DNA of 33,351 nucleotides from Methanobacteriota archaeon (lineage in GTDB: Archaea > Halobacteriota > Methanomicrobia > Methanomicrobiales > Methanoculleaceae): positions 1 through 33,351 of the forward strand of contig JASUSO010000015.1 in assembly GCA_030446015.1 (NCBI GenBank), in the 5' to 3' direction. How positions within the stretch are numbered: position 1 is the stretch's first letter; each line of letters starts with the position of its first letter. Under the pieces are notes generated by a model that was given only the letters and a program-made list of their open reading frames with translations, was not told the origin of the DNA and searched no databases. Shown here piece by piece: positions 1,093 to 33,351 of this stretch. Position numbers and translations under genes: made by a program.

Positions 1093-1711
1093 ATGCTGCT
1101 GAAAATACCCGTAACTTCCTCTTTTCATTAAAGGTGGTTCGCACGAAAATTACGGTCAAGTTAAAACCGAGGATTGTGCTTATTGGCGTTCCTGAATATG
1201 GATTCCATTGGCTATCGCCATGCACTGCCCCCGCCCCGAGGGGCGGGGGACGACGCTCCGCTAGGAACGACCGTCCGCAGGACGGGAGTTTGAGAAGCCA
1301 TCAGGCTTCGAGGAGCGGAGTTGAAGCACCGAAGGTGCGAATGAGGAGGCCGAAGGCCGGGTGGGGTGGGGGTTACAGGAATCCCTTAGTGGTGAGACAG
1401 GGGAGGGGGTATCCCCCCCTCGAAACTCTTCGAGTTTCTCAAGCTCGCTTCGCTCGCACTTCCCACCTGACGGTGGTCGAGCTCCGTTCCTGCTGAACGT
1501 CGCACTCCCCGTCAGCCCCTCCCCACATGGCGATACCGGGATAAAATCCGTTCTACATTCTGGCTTCTACTACAGCCCAAGTGGGGAAGAACTGTATACT
1601 GTGTTCCGATCACGATATAGCAAATTTGTGCAGACATTTCTTGGAGGAACCCTGTAAAATAGTCTCATCTAGAAAGAAAATGCTTATATGCACATGGCGT
1701 AAGGGGGTTGT
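1093..1711. other. Non-coding stretch around hairpin-array element 1, with possible gene remnants
   Basis: Apart from the repeat at 1213-1535, the two flanks (1093-1212 and 1536-1657) have the lower GC of the neighbouring orphan genes and translate into protein-like stretches: one ends IVLIGVPEYGFHW just before the repeat, the other reads SGEELYTVFRSRYSKFVQTF just after it and stops at 1655-1657. They are in different frames and neither has a clear start. They may be halves of a small gene broken by the element, or chance. Confidence 0.35.
1213..1535. repeat. Hairpin-array element, copy 1 (323 bp, terminal inverted repeats)
   Basis: Bounded by TATCGCCATG (1213-1222) and its exact reverse complement CATGGCGATA (1526-1535). 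Between them lie short perfect hairpins one after another: CCCCCGCCCC-ga-GGGGCGGGGG, CCGTCC-gca-GGACGG, GAAGCC-atca-GGCTTC, GCACC-gaa-GGTGC, GGCC-gaa-GGCC, GGGGG-tatc-CCCCC, GAAACTC-ttc-GAGTTTC, a GCTCGCTTCGCTCGC palindrome and CCACC-tgac-GGTGG. The left arm is purine-rich on the plus strand and the right arm pyrimidine-rich. The centre holds GAGACAGGGGAGGGGG, which is also present in copy 2. No transposase is encoded, so this looks like a non-autonomous element or a structured RNA source. Confidence 0.8.
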
Positions 1712-5635: not shown

Positions 5636-6265
5636 ATGAAGATCGTCGTCTCCGTGGAGGACGCCGCCGCCATCGACGGGGTGGTGGAGTACAACCCGAC
5701 GTTCATCGAGATACGGCTTGACAGGATGGAGGGGGATCTGCTGGACCAGGTCCGTGCAATCCGGGAGAAGACCGATATCCCGCTGATCGCCACGCTCAGG
5801 AGCCGGGACGAGGGGGGCCGGTTTGTCGGCGACGCGGATCTCTGGGCCCGGATCGTCGGGCCGATAGCGCGCTACGTCGATATCGTGGACGTGGAAGCGC
5901 GTTACCGGGATCACGCGCCGTTCATCAAGAGCCAGGGTGTCCAGATCCTTGCGTCGCTCCACACGAACGAGATGCCCACACCGCCGGAGCTCGGGAGGAT
6001 CGAGGAGATGCTCCGGTCGTACGGCGATATCCCGAAGATCGTCGTGCGCCCTAAGACCCGGGACGACCTCTTCGAACTCGTCCTCTTCACCCACCGGGCC
6101 CCAAAACCGATCTGCACGAGCATCATGGGCGCCGAATTCCGCTACGCCCGCGCAATCCTGCCCCTCTTCGGGTCGGAGTTCGTCTTCTGCCATGCCGGCA
6201 CCCCGACGGCCGAAGGGCAGTACCATATACAGGAGATGCGGCAGATTGCGGATCTGTTGAAGTGA
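5636..6265 (+). CDS. aroD: 3-dehydroquinate dehydratase, type I
   Basis: Dehydrates 3-dehydroquinate to 3-dehydroshikimate through a Schiff-base lysine. The 209-residue protein shows the type I pattern: Glu25 and Arg27 in [12 protein letters not shown], general-base His109 in SLHTNE, the Schiff-base Lys134 in DIPKIVVRP, and the C-terminal ICTSIMG...SEFVFCHAG segment that lines the substrate pocket. Length is typical for archaeal AroD. It supplies the one shikimate-pathway step missing from the large minus-strand aro operon that ends 1.5 kb away, so it is split from that operon by a VapBC module and a repeat element. Promoter evidence suggests independent transcription. Confidence 0.93.
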
Positions 6266-6353
6266 GCGTGAGGAATCTCACGGCTCCCTTCACCTTTCTG
6301 ATGTGCACGTCATCGCACCCGCGATTCAGCGAATTTTCCCGGAGGCTCTTAAC

Positions 6354-6378
6354 GTTTATATTCCAGAGATGTATACAT
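6354..6378 (+). promoter_or_regulatory. vapBC promoter with palindromic operator candidate
   Basis: GTTTATATT (TATA centre about 6358) lies 27 nt before the GTG at 6385, the spacing expected for a leaderless transcript. Between them the perfect palindrome ATGTATACAT (6369-6378) covers the region from TATA to start. Antitoxins commonly repress their own operon by binding such palindromes; the link is inferred. Confidence 0.5.
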
Positions 6379-6384
6379 GAAATT

Positions 6385-6612
6385 GTGTCTACAACATCAG
6401 TTTACAGCATCCGTATCGACTCCCGGGTCAAGAAGATGCTCGATGAGCTGGACGATCCCACATGGCAGGATGAGCTCCGTACCTTCATCGAGCAGTCGAT
6501 ACGGAGAAGGCGCAAGGCCCAGCTCCTGGCCCGGGCGCGAGAAGCCCACCGATCCCTGGGTGAGGGCACCCCTGCCGCCGACCTGATCCGGGAGGATCGC
6601 GATGCCCGATAG
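6385..6612 (+). CDS. vapB: VapB-type antitoxin
   Basis: A 75-residue small protein directly upstream of a PIN-domain toxin, overlapping it by 11 nt. It starts VSTTSVYSIRIDSRVKKML, which looks like a ribbon-helix-helix DNA-binding N-terminus, followed by a basic helix (SIRRRRKAQLLARAREAHRSL) and an acidic tail, as in VapB proteins that wrap the toxin active site. The open frame continues upstream to 6262, but that extension is cysteine- and phenylalanine-rich, contains the promoter, and overlaps the aroD stop. The GTG at 6385, placed 27 nt after the TATA element, is therefore preferred and implies leaderless translation. Partner and operon position support the call more than sequence motifs do. 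Confidence 0.75.
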   Translation: MSTTSVYSIRIDSRVKKMLDELDDPTWQDELRTFIEQSIRRRRKAQLLARAREAHRSLGEGTPAADLIREDRDAR

Positions 6613-7015
6613 CGTTGTGCTGGACTCGTGCATCATTGCGGCGGTCTTCTTCCCGGAAGGGGTCACGGAGAAGGCGATCGAGATCGTGGAGAACCACGAC
6701 TGCACCACGGTCGATCTCGCATACGCCGAGGTTGCAAATGTGGCCTGGAAACGGGTTCGCCATTCTGGCCAGGATCAGGGTCTCGTCATGTCCGCGCTGG
6801 CTGATGCTCAGGCGTTCATCCGGGAGACCTGCCAGGTGGTACCGGCCCGCGACCTGATCCCTGCGGCATACGATCTGGCGTGCAGTCACGGGATCACAAT
6901 CTACGATGCGCTCTTTGTTGCCGCTGCGGAGCAGTGCAGGACCTGCCTGGTGACTGCCGACGGCAGGCTTCATGACACGGTGAGAGAGGTGGTGACCTCG
7001 CATCTGGTCCGGTGA
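6602..7015 (+). CDS. vapC: VapC-type PIN-domain ribonuclease toxin
   Basis: A 137-residue PIN-domain protein; VapC toxins are Mg2+-dependent endoribonucleases, usually cutting tRNA or rRNA, silenced by VapB. The acidic active-site set is present: Asp8 in VVLDSCIIAAVF, Glu43 in AYAEVANV, Asp102 in TIYDALFVAAA and Asp120 in LVTADGRL. The start ATG overlaps the antitoxin stop by 11 nt and has GGAGG with 6 nt spacing, so translation is coupled. It lies between aroD and repeat element copy 2. All catalytic residues are intact, so it is probably active. Confidence 0.9.
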   Translation: MPDSVVLDSCIIAAVFFPEGVTEKAIEIVENHDCTTVDLAYAEVANVAWKRVRHSGQDQGLVMSALADAQAFIRETCQVVPARDLIPAAYDLACSHGITIYDALFVAAAEQCRTCLVTADGRLHDTVREVVTSHLVR

Positions 7016-7166: not shown

Positions 7167-7570
7167 TATCGCCACACACTGCCCCCGCCCCTTGGGGGGG
7201 CGGAACGACTGCCGGAACGGCAGGAGTTTGAGCACCGCCAGGTGCGATTGAGGAGCGCGAAGCGCGGGCGGTGGGGGTTATAGGGAGCGTTTTGGGTAGA
7301 GACAGGGGAGGGGGCACGCCCCCCTTCCCACCTAGCGGTGCTCAAGCTCGCTCCGCTCGCACCTCGAAGACCTTCGGTCTTCTCGTGCTCCGTTCCTAGC
7401 GGAACATCGCACCTCGCACCCAACGGTGCTCAAGCTCGTTGCGCTCGCACTCCCCGTCAGCCCCTCGCACCTAACGGTGCTCATGCTCCTGCCCCGCACC
7501 TGACGGTGCTCCAGCTCCGTTCCGTTGGAACGTCGCACCCTTCGGCCAGTCGCACTCCCCAATGGCGATA
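7167..7570. repeat. Hairpin-array element, copy 2 (404 bp, terminal inverted repeats)
   Basis: Bounded by TATCGCCA (7167-7174) and TGGCGATA (7563-7570). It has the same architecture as copy 1: GC-rich hairpin after the left end, CTGCC-ggaa-CGGCAG, GCACC-gcca-GGTGC, GCGC-gaa-GCGC, the central GAGACAGGGGAGGGGG with GGGGG-cacg-CCCCC, then GCACC/GGTGC hairpins with loops tagc, caac, taac and tgac, GAAGACC-ttc-GGTCTTC, GTTCC-tagc-GGAAC and CGTTCC-gtt-GGAACG. The right arm is about 80 bp longer than in copy 1 through extra GCACC-loop-GGTGC units. Left-arm units are purine-rich on plus, right-arm units purine-rich on minus. Confidence 0.8.
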
Positions 7571-16497: not shown

Positions 16498-17736
16498 ATG
16501 GGAGATATCGCTCGGCAGGCACCAGAGAAGGATACCGGTGAAGACATCTACCAGTATCTCCTAGAACGGATTACGAACCTCGAAAACCGAAACCTGGAGC
16601 TACGCGAGCAGTACCGCCAGATGGAGTCCGAGAAACGATACGTTGAGACCCAGAAGATCCGCTACGAGCGGGAGCTCCGAAAACTCAAGAGCGAGATCGA
16701 GCAGCTCAGGAGCCCTCCCCTCGTGATCGGAACCGTTACGGACGTTATCGACAACAGCCGGGTGATTGTGCGGAGCAGCGCAGGGCCGCGATTCCTGGTC
16801 CGTACGTCGCAGCTCATCGACCCCGATCTCCTCAAGCCGGGTGTGCGGTGCACGCTCAACCAGCAGTCCCTCGCGATCGTGGACGTGCTCCCCACGAGCT
16901 ACGACGCGCAGATCTACGGCATGGAGCTGGTGGAGTCCCCGGAGGAGACCTACGAGAATATCGGCGGCCTTGAGGCGCAGATCGAGGAGATCCGGGAAGC
17001 CGTCGAACTCCCCCTGACAAAACCGCACCTCTTCGAGAAGGTCGGCATCTCCCCGCCGAAGGGTGTCCTCCTCTACGGCCCGCCCGGCACGGGGAAGACC
17101 CTCCTCGCACGGGCGGTGGCCCACCAGACGAACGCACACTTCCTCCGCGTGGTCGGCTCGGAGCTGGTGCAGAAGTACATCGGCGAGGGTGCCCGCCTGG
17201 TCCGGGAACTCTTCGATCTCGCGAAGCAGAAGGCGCCGTCGATCATCTTCATCGACGAGATCGACGCGATCGGCGCGCACCGGAACGACTCGACCACCTC
17301 CGGCGACCGCGAGGTCCAGCGGACGCTGATGCAGCTCCTCGCGGAGATGGACGGTTTCGACAACCGCGGGGACGTCAAGATCGTCGCGGCGACGAACAGG
17401 ATCGATATCCTCGACCGCGCCCTCCTCCGCCCGGGTCGGTTCGATCGGATGATCGAGATCCCGCTCCCCGACCATCAGGGGAGGCTTGCGATCTTGAAGA
17501 TCCACACCCGGAACATGAACATCGGCGAGGACGTCAACCTCGCGGAGATCTCGCGACTCACCGAGGGCAAGAACGGCGCCGATCTCCGGGCGATATGCAT
17601 GGAGGCGGGGATGTTCGCCATCAGGATGGAGCGCGACGTCGTCAACAGCGAAGACTTCATGAAGGCGATCGACAAGCTCTCGGTGGACTTCGACCGCCAC
17701 CACTTCCACACCACCTTCGGCGAGATGTTCGCCTGA
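16498..17736 (+). CDS. pan: Proteasome-activating nucleotidase, copy 1
   Basis: Hexameric AAA+ ATPase that unfolds substrates and feeds them into the archaeal 20S proteasome. The 412-residue protein has an N-terminal coiled coil (about 22-72, with the conserved SPP break at 72-74), an OB-fold (about 75-135) and the AAA+ domain: Walker A GPPGTGKT (194-201), Walker B IIFIDEID (249-256), the pore-loop-like KYIGEG (226-231), sensor ATNRID and arginine finger region LLRPGRFDR. The C-terminus ends GEMFA. The gate-opening motif is HbYX (hydrophobic-Tyr-any), so MFA has Phe in place of Tyr. Copy 2 in this window ends in a true HbYX. GAGGGG lies 4 nt before the ATG. Confidence 0.93.
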
Positions 17737-19772: not shown

Positions 19773-20948
19773 TCAGAGATACATGCGGCTGTCCGGCTGC
19801 GCCGTCGTCTCGCGCTTCACCTTCTTTATTGCCGCGAGGAAGTCGTCACGCCCAACGGCATTGGCATCCCGCCGGATCGCCATCATCCCGGCCTCCCGGC
19901 AGATCGCCTGGAGCTCCGCGCCGGTGGTGTTCCCGGCGAGTTTCGCGAGTTCGGCAAGGTCAACGCTTTCGGCGAGCGACATCTTCGCGGTGTGGATCTT
20001 TAAGATCTCCAGGCGCGCGGCTTCGTCGGGCAGCGGGACATGGATGATCCGGTCGAACCGGCCGGGGCGCAGAAGCGCCGGGTCGAGCATATCGATCCGG
20101 TTCGTCGCCGCCATGATCCGGACGTTGCCGCGGTTCCCGAACCCGTCCATCTCCGCGAGGAGCTGCATCAGCGTCCGCTGGACCTCGGCGCTCCCGGAGG
20201 TCCCGTCGTTTGTCCGCATGCTCCCGATTGCATCGATCTCGTCGATGAAGACGATCGCCGGGGCGCGCTCCCGGGCGAGGATGAAGAGCTCGCGCACGAG
20301 CTGCGCGCCCTCCCCGATGTACTTGTGGACGAGTTCGCTCCCGGACATCCTGATGAACCGTGCCTTCGACTGACGGGCAACCGCCTTTGCAATCAGGGTC
20401 TTCCCCGTGCCGGGCGGGCCGTAGAGGAGGATGCCTTTCGGGGGCTCCACGCCCACGCGCTCGTAGATCTCGGGTTTCGTGAGCGGGTATTCGACCGCCT
20501 CCCGGACCTCCTCGATCTCCTCCTTTAGACCGCCGACCTGCTCGAACGTCACGCTCGGCTGCTCGTCGAGTTCCATGACCCTGACTCTCGCGTCGTAGAT
20601 GTTGCCGATCGTCTTGACGATGGAGAGGGTGTTGTTCACCGCCACCTTCATTCCGGGTTTGAGGGTTCGGTGGAGTTTTTCGTTGACCGCGGTGACGTAT
20701 TCCTGGTTGTTGCCCTGCTGCCGGAGATAGACTTCGCCGTTCTCAAGTACATCGACCACAGCGGCAACAAACAGCGGCACCCGCTTTAACTGGGCGTTCT
20801 CTTTTCGAAGCTGCAAGAGCTCCTTTTCCAGCAACTCGTTCTTGAGTTTGTAATCCAGGATCTGTGCCTTTAGGTCCTGGATCTGGAGAGTAAGCATATC
20901 GTGCTCGCTGCCGGGAGTGTTGCCAATGGTTTCGTCCATGTCACTCAT
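19773..20948 (-). CDS. pan: Proteasome-activating nucleotidase, copy 2
   Basis: Second PAN ATPase in the window, 391 residues. It has an N-terminal coiled coil (about 17-56), an OB-fold with VPLFVAAVVDVLENGEVYL, then the AAA+ domain with Walker A GPPGTGKT (176-183), IVFIDEID, HKYIGEGAQ pore loop, ATNRIDML and LLRPGRFDR. It ends DSRMYL, so the last three residues form a canonical HbYX motif (Met-Tyr-Leu) for 20S gate opening. Compared with copy 1 it has a shorter N-terminus and a lower-similarity coiled coil and OB-fold, pointing to different substrate or adaptor selection. The start ATG at 20948 is about 24 nt from the centre of the palindromic TATA element, fitting a leaderless mRNA. Confidence 0.94.
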   Translation of the reverse strand: MSDMDETIGNTPGSEHDMLTLQIQDLKAQILDYKLKNELLEKELLQLRKENAQLKRVPLFVAAVVDVLENGEVYLRQQGNNQEYVTAVNEKLHRTLKPGMKVAVNNTLSIVKTIGNIYDARVRVMELDEQPSVTFEQVGGLKEEIEEVREAVEYPLTKPEIYERVGVEPPKGILLYGPPGTGKTLIAKAVARQSKARFIRMSGSELVHKYIGEGAQLVRELFILARERAPAIVFIDEIDAIGSMRTNDGTSGSAEVQRTLMQLLAEMDGFGNRGNVRIMAATNRIDMLDPALLRPGRFDRIIHVPLPDEAARLEILKIHTAKMSLAESVDLAELAKLAGNTTGAELQAICREAGMMAIRRDANAVGRDDFLAAIKKVKRETTAQPDSRMYL

Positions 20949-22621: not shown

Positions 22622-25600
22622 ATGGATTTCTTCAGTAATATTCTGGGTCAGGGTAAGAACGCGAACCCCTCGATACAGCAGGGAACCTCTCAGTTCGAGT
22701 CCGGGAACTACGGCGAGGCGGTGAAGAGTTTCGAGAAGGCGCTCAAGATCGAGCCTGAAAACAGATTCGCCCAACTGTACCTGGGGCGGGCGCTCGCCGG
22801 TCTCGGCAGGGACGGCGAAGCCGTTGTGTGGCTGAAGAAGGCCCTCGAGTCGGCTCCCGACGATGCCGAGACGCTCCGGGTGCTGGGGCACGTCCTCGCC
22901 CGGTCCGGCGAGTACGAGGAGGCGGCGGGGTGCTTCGCGCGGATCGTCAAAGAGCAGCCTGCGGACGCGAACGCCTCGTACTGGTACGGAGAGATGCTTG
23001 AGCGGCTCGGGCGGTATGCCGAGGCGGCATCGGCTTATACCCGGGCGCTGGCGGCAGACCCGGAGAACGTCGTCCTGCGGGAGCGGTGCGGGAGGATGCA
23101 CGAGCGGGCCGGTGACTACCGGGAAGCGGCGGCAAGTTTCGAGAAGATCCTCAGAACGAATCCCGGCAGCACCGATCTGCTCGCCCGCATCGGGACGGCA
23201 TACCTCAACCAGGGCGATTACCCGAAAGCCGCCGGTCTCTTCGACCGGGTGCTTGCTACGGAACCGGAGAACATCGACGCGCTCTACGGCAAGGCCCGGG
23301 CGCTCGAGTATCTCGGTCAGTTCCAGGAGGCCGCCGACTGTTGCGGCGAGATCGTTGCCGTCGAGCCCGAGAACGTCCCCGCCTGGTATCACCGCGGCTC
23401 GATGCTTCTGCGCGCAGGAAAGTATGCAGAAGCGCTGGAGTGCTTCGAGAAGGTCGCCCTCGCCGACCCGGATCACGTCCCGGTGCGTTACGCCATGGGG
23501 ATGGTCTACGACGCCCTCGGCCGTTACGAGCGAGCGGTCAAGAGTTTCGATCATATCCTGAAGCACGACCAGGGTCAGGTCCAGATATGGTATGCCCGCG
23601 GCATGGCGCTCTTCCGTCTCGGCCAGTACTCCGAGGCGATCCGGTCGTTCGATCGCGTGCTTGAGAGCCGGGCGACGACCGGGATGAAGTGGATCGGGGA
23701 CGGCGCCGACCTCGCGCTCTTCGAGCGCGATGCGGGAGTGCCCCGGAGGCAGAAGCCGATAAAGTTCGATGCGTCGAACGAGCGCGTCTACGACTGCCGG
23801 GGAACCGCCCTCCTGCACCTCGGGCGGTATGCCGAGGCGCAGAAGGACTTCGAGCGTGTGCTTGAGGCGGATCCCGGGAACGTCTCCGTCCTGCAGCGGA
23901 GCGCTACCGCACTCCTCCATCTCGGCAGGTATGAGGAGGCGGCACGCTGCCTGGATACGGTCCTTGAGAGAGAGCCGCATAACGCCGTCGCCGCGTCGAT
24001 GAAGGCAGACGCGCTCATGAACCTCGGCAGATACGATGATGCTCTGGCGTGCCTTGATTCGGTGAAGGGGGCCGGCAGCGAACTCCACCTCCTGTACCGG
24101 AAGGGAGACGCCCTCCTGCACCTTGGGCGGTATGTCGAGGCGGCAGAGGCACTCGGAGCCCTTCTCAGCGTCAATCCCACCGATGTGGCAGCGCAGAACG
24201 GCAGAGGAGAGGCGCTCATGCACCTCGGCCGGTATGAGGAGGCACTCGCCTGCTATGACGGGGCGCTCTCGGTCGGCCCGGCCGACCGTGTCGCTCTGCT
24301 CGGCCGGAGCACGGCGCTCGGACACCTCGGCCGCTACGAAGAGGCGCTCGGCTCCATCGCTAGGTTGACGGAGATCGGTCTTGAGGGAGCCGGGACGATC
24401 CTTCGGAAAGCATGGCTCCTCGAAGCCCTCGGCCACTACGACGCAGCCGTCGGGTGCTACGAAGCCCTCCTTGCGGCCGATCCGAAAGCCGGTGGGTACT
24501 CGGCAGGCCTTGGGTTTGCTCTCGCCATGCTCGGGCGGTACGAGGAGGCCGCCGAACGGTTCAAGGTAGCCACGCTTGCGGATCCGAAGAACTACTTTGC
24601 GTGGTTCAACCGGGGCCGGGCCCTGGAGCGGATGGGGCAGTACGCGGATGCGGCGGAATGCTACGCAAAAGTGGCCGAGGGCCGGCCGGAGGATATCGGC
24701 GCATGCTTTGCCCTCGCCGTCACCCTCGCACGGCTCGGCAGACACCAGAAGGCGATCGAGTGCTGCGACCGGGTGCTCGCCGCCGACGCCTCGAACGCCG
24801 CGGTTGCACGGATCCGGGCGGATATGCTTGAGGCCGTCGGCAGGCACGAAGAGGCGGCGGCAGCATACGAGCGTTACCTGAACGTCTCCCCGAGCGACCG
24901 CGACGCCAGGATGGCGTTCGGTATGGCGCTCGAGCGCGACGGAAAGTTCGCCGATGCGATCAAGCAGTACGCGCTGGTGCTCGAGGGCGACGAGCGCGAC
25001 ACCGAAGCGTGGTACACCCTCGAGAGCGCCCTCGTGCACATGGGACGGTACGAGGAGGCGCTTGAATGTTCCGACAGCATCGTCGAGGCGAGCCCGGAGA
25101 ACCGGGCTGCCTGGCAGCGGCGCGGCGAGATCTTCATGTGGCTCGGCCGCTACGCCGACGCGGTGGCGTGCTTCGAGAAGGTGATCGCGGCCGACCCGGC
25201 CGACGTCCTCACCCTGCGAAGGCTCGGCGAGGCCCATGAGAAGGCCGGCAGGTACGAGGATGCCCTCGCCGCCTACACGCAGGTGCTCGACCGGGAACCG
25301 ACCAGCATCGAGACTCTCCATGCCCGCTCATCGGCCCTCATCCATCTCGGGCGGTACAGCGAGGCGGTCAAGTCGATCGACAAGATCATCGTTCTCCAGG
25401 ACGAGAACCCCGCCGTGCTCTTCATGCGGGGGACGGTGCTCGAGAAAGCAGGCAGGTACGACGACGCCCTCGCGAGTTACGAGAAAGCGCTCTCGATCGA
25501 CCCGAAGAACGCGGCCGTCTGGAACGCGGCGGGGAGGCTCAAGGATTCATTGGGACGGCATGAAGATGCCATCAAAGCGTTTGATAAGGCCATCGACCTG

Positions 25601-25828
25601 GGCGGGGAGGATGTCCATACCTTGCTCGCGAAGGGGCTCGCTCTCAGTCACCTGGACAAGCCCGACCGGGCGGCCGCCTGCTTTGATAAGGTTCTGGAGA
25701 TGGATCCCCGCCATGCCCGGGCATGGTATCTGAAAGGGAGGGCGCTTGATACGCTGGGCAGGTTTGCGGAAGCGGTGGAGTGCTTTAAGAAGGCGCTCGA
25801 GAACGGAGGCGGGGGCGAAGAAGCGTGA
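22622..25828 (+). CDS. Giant tetratricopeptide-repeat protein, 1068 aa
   Basis: Almost the whole protein is TPR repeats of 34 residues, roughly 30 units. Each has the signature of Trp/Leu near position 4, Gly8, Tyr/Leu11, the LGRYEEAL-type turn and Pro32, for example LLHLGRYAEAQKDFERVLEA. The only clear interruption is about residues 345-385 (ATTGMKWIGDGADLALFERD), where a non-TPR loop is inserted between units. There is no signal peptide, membrane helix or catalytic domain, so it is a cytoplasmic scaffold forming a long superhelix. Partners are not evident. The downstream FKBP lipoprotein overlaps it by 4 nt. A 930-codon antisense frame inside it is a composition artefact of the GC-rich repeats. 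Confidence 0.9.
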   Translation: MDFFSNILGQGKNANPSIQQGTSQFESGNYGEAVKSFEKALKIEPENRFAQLYLGRALAGLGRDGEAVVWLKKALESAPDDAETLRVLGHVLARSGEYEEAAGCFARIVKEQPADANASYWYGEMLERLGRYAEAASAYTRALAADPENVVLRERCGRMHERAGDYREAAASFEKILRTNPGSTDLLARIGTAYLNQGDYPKAAGLFDRVLATEPENIDALYGKARALEYLGQFQEAADCCGEIVAVEPENVPAWYHRGSMLLRAGKYAEALECFEKVALADPDHVPVRYAMGMVYDALGRYERAVKSFDHILKHDQGQVQIWYARGMALFRLGQYSEAIRSFDRVLESRATTGMKWIGDGADLALFERDAGVPRRQKPIKFDASNERVYDCRGTALLHLGRYAEAQKDFERVLEADPGNVSVLQRSATALLHLGRYEEAARCLDTVLEREPHNAVAASMKADALMNLGRYDDALACLDSVKGAGSELHLLYRKGDALLHLGRYVEAAEALGALLSVNPTDVAAQNGRGEALMHLGRYEEALACYDGALSVGPADRVALLGRSTALGHLGRYEEALGSIARLTEIGLEGAGTILRKAWLLEALGHYDAAVGCYEALLAADPKAGGYSAGLGFALAMLGRYEEAAERFKVATLADPKNYFAWFNRGRALERMGQYADAAECYAKVAEGRPEDIGACFALAVTLARLGRHQKAIECCDRVLAADASNAAVARIRADMLEAVGRHEEAAAAYERYLNVSPSDRDARMAFGMALERDGKFADAIKQYALVLEGDERDTEAWYTLESALVHMGRYEEALECSDSIVEASPENRAAWQRRGEIFMWLGRYADAVACFEKVIAADPADVLTLRRLGEAHEKAGRYEDALAAYTQVLDREPTSIETLHARSSALIHLGRYSEAVKSIDKIIVLQDENPAVLFMRGTVLEKAGRYDDALASYEKALSIDPKNAAVWNAAGRLKDSLGRHEDAIKAFDKAIDLGGEDVHTLLAKGLALSHLDKPDRAAACFDKVLEMDPRHARAWYLKGRALDTLGRFAEAVECFKKALENGGGGEEA

Positions 25829-26505: not shown

Positions 26506-26575
26506 AGTGCTTGTATTACTGCCCTTCAAACCTGCTGATTTCTTCTGATTACACAACGCACGGCTTCCGTGGGAG

Positions 26576-26640
26576 TATCGCCATTGGGGAGTGCGACCGG
26601 CCGAAGGGCGGGAGCAGGAGCACCGTAGGTGCGCAGTCCC
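26576..26640 (-). repeat. Truncated right end of a hairpin-array element (reverse orientation)
   Basis: Starts with the terminal repeat TATCGCCAT (26576-26584) followed by TGGGGAGTGCGACCGGCCGA, which is the reverse complement of the right end of copy 2 (7530-7570) with few differences, then a GCACC-gta-GGTGC hairpin. The matching left end is missing, so it is a truncated copy. Confidence 0.6.
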
Positions 26641-26688
26641 CATGAAATCCGTACATCTGGGTAAGCGATGTCCACACAGGACATCTCT

Positions 26689-33007: not shown

Positions 33008-33351
33008 AGCGACGGGCCGGAACTCGAAAAAATTCAAAGCGTTTTCGAGTAACGAGGTTCCGTAGGAACCGAGTTTAAGCACCGTTAGGTGCGAGTGGCG
33101 ACGGGCGGGGTGCACCCGGGAGACTGCACCCGGTTTTTTGCTGAAAGAGGGGTGGCCGTACGGGCTGGTGATGCGGGACTCACCTCTAGAGTTTAAAGCC
33201 CAACACACTGGACCGTGGGAGCATCGCCACTGGGGGAGGGGCTGACGGGGAGTGCGAGCGAAGCGAGCTTGAGCACCGTTAGGTGCGAGGTGCGATGTTC
33301 CGCTAGGAACGAAGCACGAGAAGACCGAAGGTCTTAGAGATGCGAGCGAAG
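33008..33351. other. Non-coding end of window with hairpin repeats
   Basis: After the PspC gene there is a fragment with GGTTCC-gta-GGAACC and GCACC-gtt-AGGTGC hairpins (33055-33093), a GGGTGCACCC palindrome followed by a second TGCACCCGGTTTTTT run (33108-33140) that may terminate transcription, then the start of another hairpin-array element at 33222. No gene is credible. Confidence 0.6.
33222..33351 (-). repeat. Hairpin-array element, copy 4 (reverse orientation, cut by window end)
   Basis: Starts CATCGCCA, one base different from the terminal repeat of the other copies, then runs GGGGAGGGGCTGACGGGGAG, GCGAGCG-aa-GCGAGC, GCACC-gtt-AGGTGC, GTTCCG-ct-AGGAAC and GAAGACC-gaa-GGTCTT. Read on the minus strand it follows the right arm of copy 2 (7335-7480) unit by unit with few substitutions, ending at the window edge in the middle of the GCTCGC unit. 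Confidence 0.75.

Follow-up and report, generated by a model that had tools for sequence, protein, structure and literature searches.

In Haloquadratum walsbyi, the small mobile repeats SMR-A and SMR-B are short and non-coding, possess inverted repeats, and are accompanied by neither a target duplication nor a related transposon; their mobilization is considered enigmatic, and SMR-A copies favor near-terminal palindromes in other elements as insertion sites (available extract of PMC3119063). In yeast mitochondria, GC clusters, for which no dedicated enzyme is known, fuse with one another and become shuffled (accessible passages of PMC4478555). Among REP palindromes, the GTAG type has been linked to RAYTs, and CGTC repeats seem to lack a dedicated transposase (accessible passages of PMC2817692 and PMC3733652).

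The locus analyzed here lies in a window of 33,351 nucleotides, that is, the whole stretch of DNA examined, from a Methanoculleaceae archaeon (GenBank assembly GCA_030446015.1, contig JASUSO010000015.1). The element in question is a base repeat that carries four double-hairpin modules, one of them nested in a hairpin loop of another, and we consider it likely that base and modules are two layers of small non-coding mobile DNA that together form a composite element. No description of such a repeat was found in the literature searched, where most subscription-journal papers were absent, and the accessible parts of two M. marisnigri genome papers (PMC3035220, PMC2686161) contain none.

Anatomy and distribution of the base repeat

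The original prediction had singled out 1213-1535 as a chain of tight hairpins enclosed by exact 10-bp terminal inverted repeats. These inverted repeats are present in the window sequence (Table 1), and the interval contains eight non-overlapping perfect hairpins (stem of 5 or more, loop of 2-5), whereas 1000 dinucleotide-preserving shuffles gave 1.57 on average and never more than 7. Folding of 1190-1560 yielded z scores of -3.9 (RNA, plus strand), -6.2 (RNA, minus strand) and -3.8 (DNA, plus strand), with none of 100 shuffles equally stable in any of the three modes. The direct repeats in 1000-1800 are exclusively two-copy and 8-16 nt long, which agrees with the predicted exclusion of a CRISPR. 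Neither of the flanking ORFs (736-1092 and 1712-2047) has a Pfam match. In our reading, the copy comprises 11 stems, three belonging to the base and eight to the four two-hairpin modules, with one right-arm stem being weak; in the DNA fold of 1190-1560, the split arms of the outer left module pair around the nested module. That the interior combines a base repeat with a second family of modules, which are inserted both in the base and in each other, is new with respect to the original prediction.

Table 1. Parts of the element copy at 1199-1553 and further copies in the window
Feature	Position	Strand	Remark
Left outer end, decayed type A, consensus CACGG[AC]TTTCC-n6	1199..1212	+	copy classed A-A
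Inner terminal inverted repeat TATCGCCATG	1213..1222	+	
Base hairpin a, CCCCCGCCCC/GGGGCGGGGG	1228..1249	+	covarying pairs in 35 base copies
Outer left module, 5' part; first hairpin split by nested module	1250..1265	+	unsplit in own-genome copy L005
Nested double-hairpin module, in loop of first hairpin of outer module	1266..1313	+	same nesting in L115, L097
Outer left module, 3' part, second hairpin CACC/GGTG	1314..1340	+	
Base hairpin b, GGCC-GAA-GGCC	1348..1358	+	alternative allele GCGC/GCGC in other copies
Base G-run and conserved center GGGTGGGGTGGGGGTTACAGG...GAGACA	1359..1399	+	
Base hairpin c, GGGGAGGGGG/CCCCCCC	1400..1419	+	
Right-arm module, GTGCGA...CGA along the minus (G-rich) strand	1420..1459	-	
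Second right-arm module	1460..1505	-	tandem with first right-arm module
Base tail TCCCCGTCAGCCCCTCCCCA	1506..1525	+	
Inner terminal inverted repeat CATGGCGATA	1526..1535	+	
Right outer end, decayed type A, reverse complement	1536..1553	+	
Second window copy, span 404	7167..7570	+	adjoins 3' end of chorismate synthase gene; right outer end to ~7588
Minimal derivative: type A end, TATCGCCATTGGGGA, one module, type A-like end	26559..26653	+	
Partial third copy, type B end	33196..33351	-	cut by contig end

The base consists of a core of ~147 bp between TATCGCCA and TGGCGATA, with three hairpins, plus outer ends. Scripted assignment of right ends delimited 114 copies, among which 140-149 bp is the commonest size class (21 copies); 63 further left ends, chance matches included, had no right end within reach. 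Thirty-five base copies of 130-152 bp could be aligned with a mean column identity of 77%, sharing hairpin a (CCCCGCCCC/GGGGCGGGG), hairpin b (GGCC/GGCC or GCGC/GCGC), the G-run, the conserved center, hairpin c and the C-rich tail. As boundaries of the family, the predicted limits of 1213 and 1535 fall short, with conserved sequence continuing past TATCGCC for ~24 nt in type A and ~31 nt in type B. Type A (cCCC.tgCACGGcTTTCC) occupies 81 left and 29 right ends, and type B (CCCgGTgCAGTGGACCGTG) 16 left and 46 right ends; the unclassified ends (52 left, 4 right) include chance bacterial matches and ends with intervening modules. The 93 full copies comprise 34 of A-B, 17 of A-A, 11 of B-A and 3 of B-B configuration, in addition to 28 with an unclassified left end.

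Incomplete and rearranged forms also occur. In half elements (L011, L071, L076, L096, L127, L139, L157, L168 and L174), the family sequence extends from the left end to roughly GGGGTGGGGG and gives way to unique sequence, and a truncated element at ~1590-1620 of L033 (G000:C32) leads into sequence with the hairpin CCCACGAGTTCAGTCGTGGG, which presumably resembles the right end of IS605/TnpB. A tandem array of the base (L268, 1075-2304; period 260, 4.7 copies) was observed in G024, a genome free of CACC-allele modules in which matches elsewhere are similarly spaced. Inspection by eye of alignment A1 (columns 17-24 and 58-67) revealed that the hairpin a allele, CCCCCGCCCC or CCCGCCCCC, tracks the G-run allele, GGGCGGGGTG or GGGCGGTG, a possible sign of long-range pairing in an alternative fold. 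A G4 motif lies on the minus strand of 28 of the 35 base copies and on the plus strand of 2, and is absent from both window copies tested.

Dispersal of the family was assessed with the 323-bp sequence as query, and the predicted further bounded copies do exist. In the source genome (a 2.1-Mb assembly in 105 contigs, 90% complete), 129 HSPs were obtained at E values up to 10, and the left-end pattern matched 28 times at up to 3 mismatches (21 times at 0-1), against 8 matches of a reversed-pattern control. Several copies sit at contig ends, so that the assembly seems to break on them and the copy number is a lower bound. Across 61 genomes, one per species, DNA matches were detected in 37: 33 of 35 in the genus, which is probably Methanoculleus, one of two from other genera of the family, and three of 24 from other families, the latter with one weak match each. 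A left-end scan of the named collection returned at least 115 stretches, mostly from Methanoculleus and Methanomicrobiales bins, 11 of which are bacterial and look like chance matches. The query had no match among phages and plasmids, and the exact CACC-allele module motif was not found in the viral_contigs collection.

Two further repeat structures of the window were recorded. Long inverted repeats at 16868-17676 and 19821-20629 (406 and 381 nt, 71-73% complementary) are perhaps paralogous genes facing each other. Diverged direct repeats at 22700-25800 are spaced at multiples of ~102 bp, which we assume would suit TPR-like coding repeats.

Probable insertion of double-hairpin modules

The module is a unit of ~45-50 bp with the layout GTGCGA-H1-GGAGCNTGAG-H2-CGA and with TGCGA/AACGA...GGAGCNTGAG...CGA as flanks. 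The second hairpin of 251 modules comprises 72 stem strings, dominated by CACC/GGTG (112), AAGACC/GGTCTT (20), AAACTC/GAGTTT (13) and AAACCC/GGGTTT (8), the rest being rarer. When counted by the CACC allele with up to 1 mismatch, the module motif is present in 30 of the 35 genus genomes (up to 107 copies each, 80 in the source genome); beyond the genus, it occurs 15 times in G035 and in none of the other 25 genomes, and a reversed control returned no hit in all 61.

Alignment of 110 elements to the base yielded 118 insertions of 30 nt or more, 97 of which fall into four short intervals (base positions 33-36, 57-61, 111-115 and 129-132); another 10, at 25-30, probably represent the first site displaced by the alignment, and several of the 118 do not represent modules, the alignment having wrongly joined L067, L073 and L179 to genes or neighboring elements. 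Within somewhat wider intervals, 107 of 112 modules are oriented along the G-rich strand: on the plus strand at the two sites of the left half (46/47 and 10/12), and on the minus strand at those of the right half (34/36 and 17/17). Of the five exceptions, four are false joins (L179, L073) and the fifth is a piece that lacks linkers. Because modules read along the G-rich strand, which is opposite in the two halves, the window copy flips its strand composition at the center; the predicted asymmetry is thus real and reflects a switch in module orientation. A G lies just upstream of 95 of 117 non-tandem module starts, in a context that is G-rich anyway.

Nesting was found by script in six cases, compared with 77 un-nested hairpins. 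The window copy comes in addition, since its outer module begins with a variant that the script missed. L115 and L097 are nested in the same manner as the window copy, and L094, L122, L129 and L136 in other ways; some of these cases share a genome (two from UBA208, three from MH98A), so that events are fewer than cases.

The base requires no modules, as G024, G030 and G002 are rich in base HSPs (79, 64 and 27) with 0, 5 and 1 modules, respectively; HSPs overcount elements, and many in G030 are left halves only. The gain or loss of a module is clean at a single orthologous site: L148, L176 and L072 contain the same element within conserved flanks, with a 51-bp module at GGGCGGG^GTGGGGG that is missing in L176. 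For the base itself, a joined-flank search among loci and alignments returned no clean empty site, because spacers outside the element diverge too fast.

Elements at orthologous spacers in several species also fit old loci reshuffled by recombination. By eye, the spacer between aroD (3-dehydroquinase, Pfam) and aroC (chorismate synthase, Pfam) contains an element with both inner ends in 9 of the 17 genomes in which it was readable, and remnants or none in the rest. In L195 (G032), the element is inverted relative to L182 and L181 together with ~30-45 bp of outer flank, as judged by eye, suggesting an inversion at the repeat. In the window, the region between aroD and the second copy (6262-7015) also encodes two overlapping small ORFs, the second with a PIN domain, which are likely a VapBC-type toxin-antitoxin pair; by eye, the pair is also seen in L184, with remnants in L198 and L208.

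Such observations bear on an explanation that dispenses with mobile modules and ascribes the variation to replication slippage, template switching and gene conversion within old intergenic palindromes. It would account for the small number of stem alleles (the three commonest being 112, 20 and 13 of 251), the shared orthologous sites, the inverted aroD-aroC copy and the tandem base arrays. Against it speak the occurrence of modules with conserved linkers at non-homologous positions, in one orientation and inside each other, and their absence from 5 genus genomes and from all 25 others apart from G035. We regard this explanation as unlikely.

Candidate movers and gene context

For the composite element favored here, both the traces of insertion and the possible enzymes were surveyed. 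Among 51 de-duplicated copies, the best diagonals of a target-duplication scan scored 3.4-3.8, against 3.7-4.1 for 95% of 50 re-pairings, with element boundaries uncertain by some bases. No autonomous partner was recognized: all 92 type A ends examined (three genomes, up to 1 mismatch, next to TATCGCC, 26 nt read by eye) lead into G/C-run or hairpin sequence of the family interior, and none into a recognizable gene. Of the predicted non-autonomous transposon, a bounded, repeated and non-coding element with a hairpin interior is supported; a standard transposon is not, as neither a target duplication nor a protein-coding partner was found.

A classical MITE, mobilized by the DDE transposase of an unrecognized insertion sequence with the same ends, would likewise have terminal inverted repeats, dispersed copies and no room for a transposase, and no gene was found inside the elements. 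Against this stand the lack of a duplication signal, the uniform passage of the 92 type A ends examined into the family interior, and the frequent mismatch of end types (A-B in 34 and B-A in 11 of 93 copies). In addition, M. marisnigri is tabulated with 3 transposable elements in the accessible part of PMC2686161 (the column being assigned from the shared 1790 Pfam genes). This origin appears unlikely.

Palindromes near both module ends, insertion with defined orientation and target, and an intergenic, convergent preference of the kind reported for REPs (accessible passages of PMC3733652) would suit an origin as REP/BIME-like palindromes with a Y1 transposase (RAYT) as mover, or as PATE-like fusions of IS605 ends. 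However, Y1_Tnp exceeds the cut-off in only 6 of 35 genus genomes, and module counts in five of these six are 0-2. Among the 23 genomes with 20 or more modules only one has it, leaving 22 of the 23 module-rich and 29 of the 35 genus genomes without a match over the cut-off; the source genome has a sub-threshold match. Genomes with Y1_Tnp tend to have fewer modules (Mann-Whitney p = 0.007), and a Y1-driven origin is judged quite improbable. The reverse transcriptase domain RVT_1 was detected in 3 of 35 genus genomes (2 of the 23 module-rich ones) and IS110 in 7 of 35 (3 of 23). Being missing from most module-rich genomes, Y1, reverse transcriptase and IS110 are discounted as general movers. A diverged transposase outside these three families could exist, and an unrecognized enzyme and a repair- or replication-based route both fit and cannot be told apart.

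Gene context was determined with our own codon-usage gene caller for 99 of the at least 115 named loci, after dropping 12 as chance matches and 4 shorter than 3 kb; one dropped locus, L133 from a Euryarchaeota bin, looks real in hindsight. The 114 left ends lie in 45 convergent, 32 tandem and 7 divergent gaps, at 28 locus ends and, in 2 cases, within a predicted gene. Gaps of 150 bp or more that lack an element number 24 convergent, 87 tandem and 42 divergent. The enrichment between convergent genes (45 of 84 placed elements versus 24 of 153 gaps; Fisher p = 2e-9) carries an optimistic p value, as orthologous sites were left unmerged. In tandem gene pairs, elements run in the direction of the genes in 15 cases and against it in 17.

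This distribution, with only 7 elements in divergent gaps, would be expected if selection maintained the element where genes converge, as a transcription terminator acting in both directions or as an insulator. Nevertheless, avoidance of promoters alone would give the same skew, which REPs show too, 32 of the 84 placed elements occupy tandem gaps without a preferred orientation, and element-free spacers exist (L202, L210). Selection for such a function seems to us improbable.

The original prediction had also allowed for a structured RNA, and a non-coding RNA or 3'-UTR element under selection on RNA folding would agree with the strong folding and with the 6 of 29 consensus base pairs in which both sides have changed among the 35 aligned base copies. 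However, the window contains no Rfam match at gathering scores, and an excess of G-U wobble pairs is lacking in both layers: stem mismatches number 11 GT versus 14 AC in the base and 19 GT versus 24 AC in the 251 modules, where the script also scores 65 G-A pairs if the stem is allowed to run into the loop. The balanced orientation in tandem gene pairs and the existence of tandem arrays and truncated halves also argue against this reading, which we hold to be very unlikely. DNA-level repeats tolerated at gene ends fit better than a conserved RNA.

Proposed spread and relation to known systems

With these alternatives in view, the composite of base and modules may be pictured as follows. Tens of copies of the base, often located where genes converge and sometimes arranged as tandem arrays, are dispersed on Methanoculleus chromosomes and would form a first layer. 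The modules would make up a second layer, entering the base next to its G-runs and reading in a single direction along the G-rich strand; they also adjoin one another in tandem or lie within each other's hairpin loops. The data directly show the dispersal, the independence of the two layers, the favored positions and orientation, the nesting, and a module that differs in presence at one orthologous site. We infer that folded single-stranded DNA is what moves, and that a trans-acting activity delivers it to sites next to G-runs; this activity would be distinct from any recognizable Y1 transposase, reverse transcriptase or recombinase of the IS110 kind. Stem alleles might then spread and be swapped through recombination between copies. 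Such a history needs no host function, and elements at convergent gene ends may incidentally act like terminators. A more specific version, which we put forward as doubtful, regards the modules as a self-nesting DNA hairpin parasite of ~46 nt. Its fold and linkers, rather than its stem sequence, would be what is recognized, and insertion would be strand-specific, next to G-runs or within the loops of earlier copies. The responsible activity would belong to none of the Y1, reverse transcriptase and IS110 families, and might be normal replication or repair on exposed single strands.

Classical MITEs share with this element terminal inverted repeats, dispersal and a length too short for a transposase (available extract of PMC3119063), but the present family differs from them in the absence of a target-duplication signal and of a detected parent transposon, and in its interchangeable A and B ends. 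The likeness to REP/BIME sequences lies in high-copy intergenic palindromes that are often grouped and common between convergent genes (accessible passages of PMC3733652). REPs, as described there, are single palindromes of 20-40 bp with a GTAG or CGTC tag, whereas the modules are paired, nested hairpins with two kinds of linker, archaeal and without the tag. PATEs likewise combine near-terminal palindromes with the lack of both target duplication and transposase gene (available extract of PMC3119063); they are, however, related to IS605-type transposons, and most module-rich genomes here are without a Y1 transposase.

The SMRs of Haloquadratum resemble the base in having inverted repeats, no detected target duplication and a size too small for a transposase, and resemble the modules in their preference for palindromes of other elements as insertion sites; no related transposon is known for SMRs or was found here. 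The likeness is one of description, drawn from the available extract on SMRs, and differences are apparent: SMRs are highly uniform at ~80-110 bp, whereas one layer here is a variable, self-nesting double hairpin, and their insertion target is IS605/PATE, whereas that of the modules is the base repeat. Mitochondrial GC clusters and hairpin elements are also proliferating intergenic hairpins (accessible passages of PMC4478555 and PMC2800124), a matter of resemblance only, and the GC clusters differ in their putative target duplication and in belonging to organelle DNA (PMC4478555, same passages).

The genus provides a natural series of elements with no, one, many and nested modules, in isolates with sequenced genomes, through which the spread of enzyme-less palindromic repeats such as CGTC REPs, Haloquadratum SMRs and mitochondrial GC clusters becomes testable by strain comparison and gene-content correlation. 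As far as the accessible parts of the cited reports describe them, the closest known systems are the small mobile repeats of Haloquadratum and the mitochondrial GC clusters.
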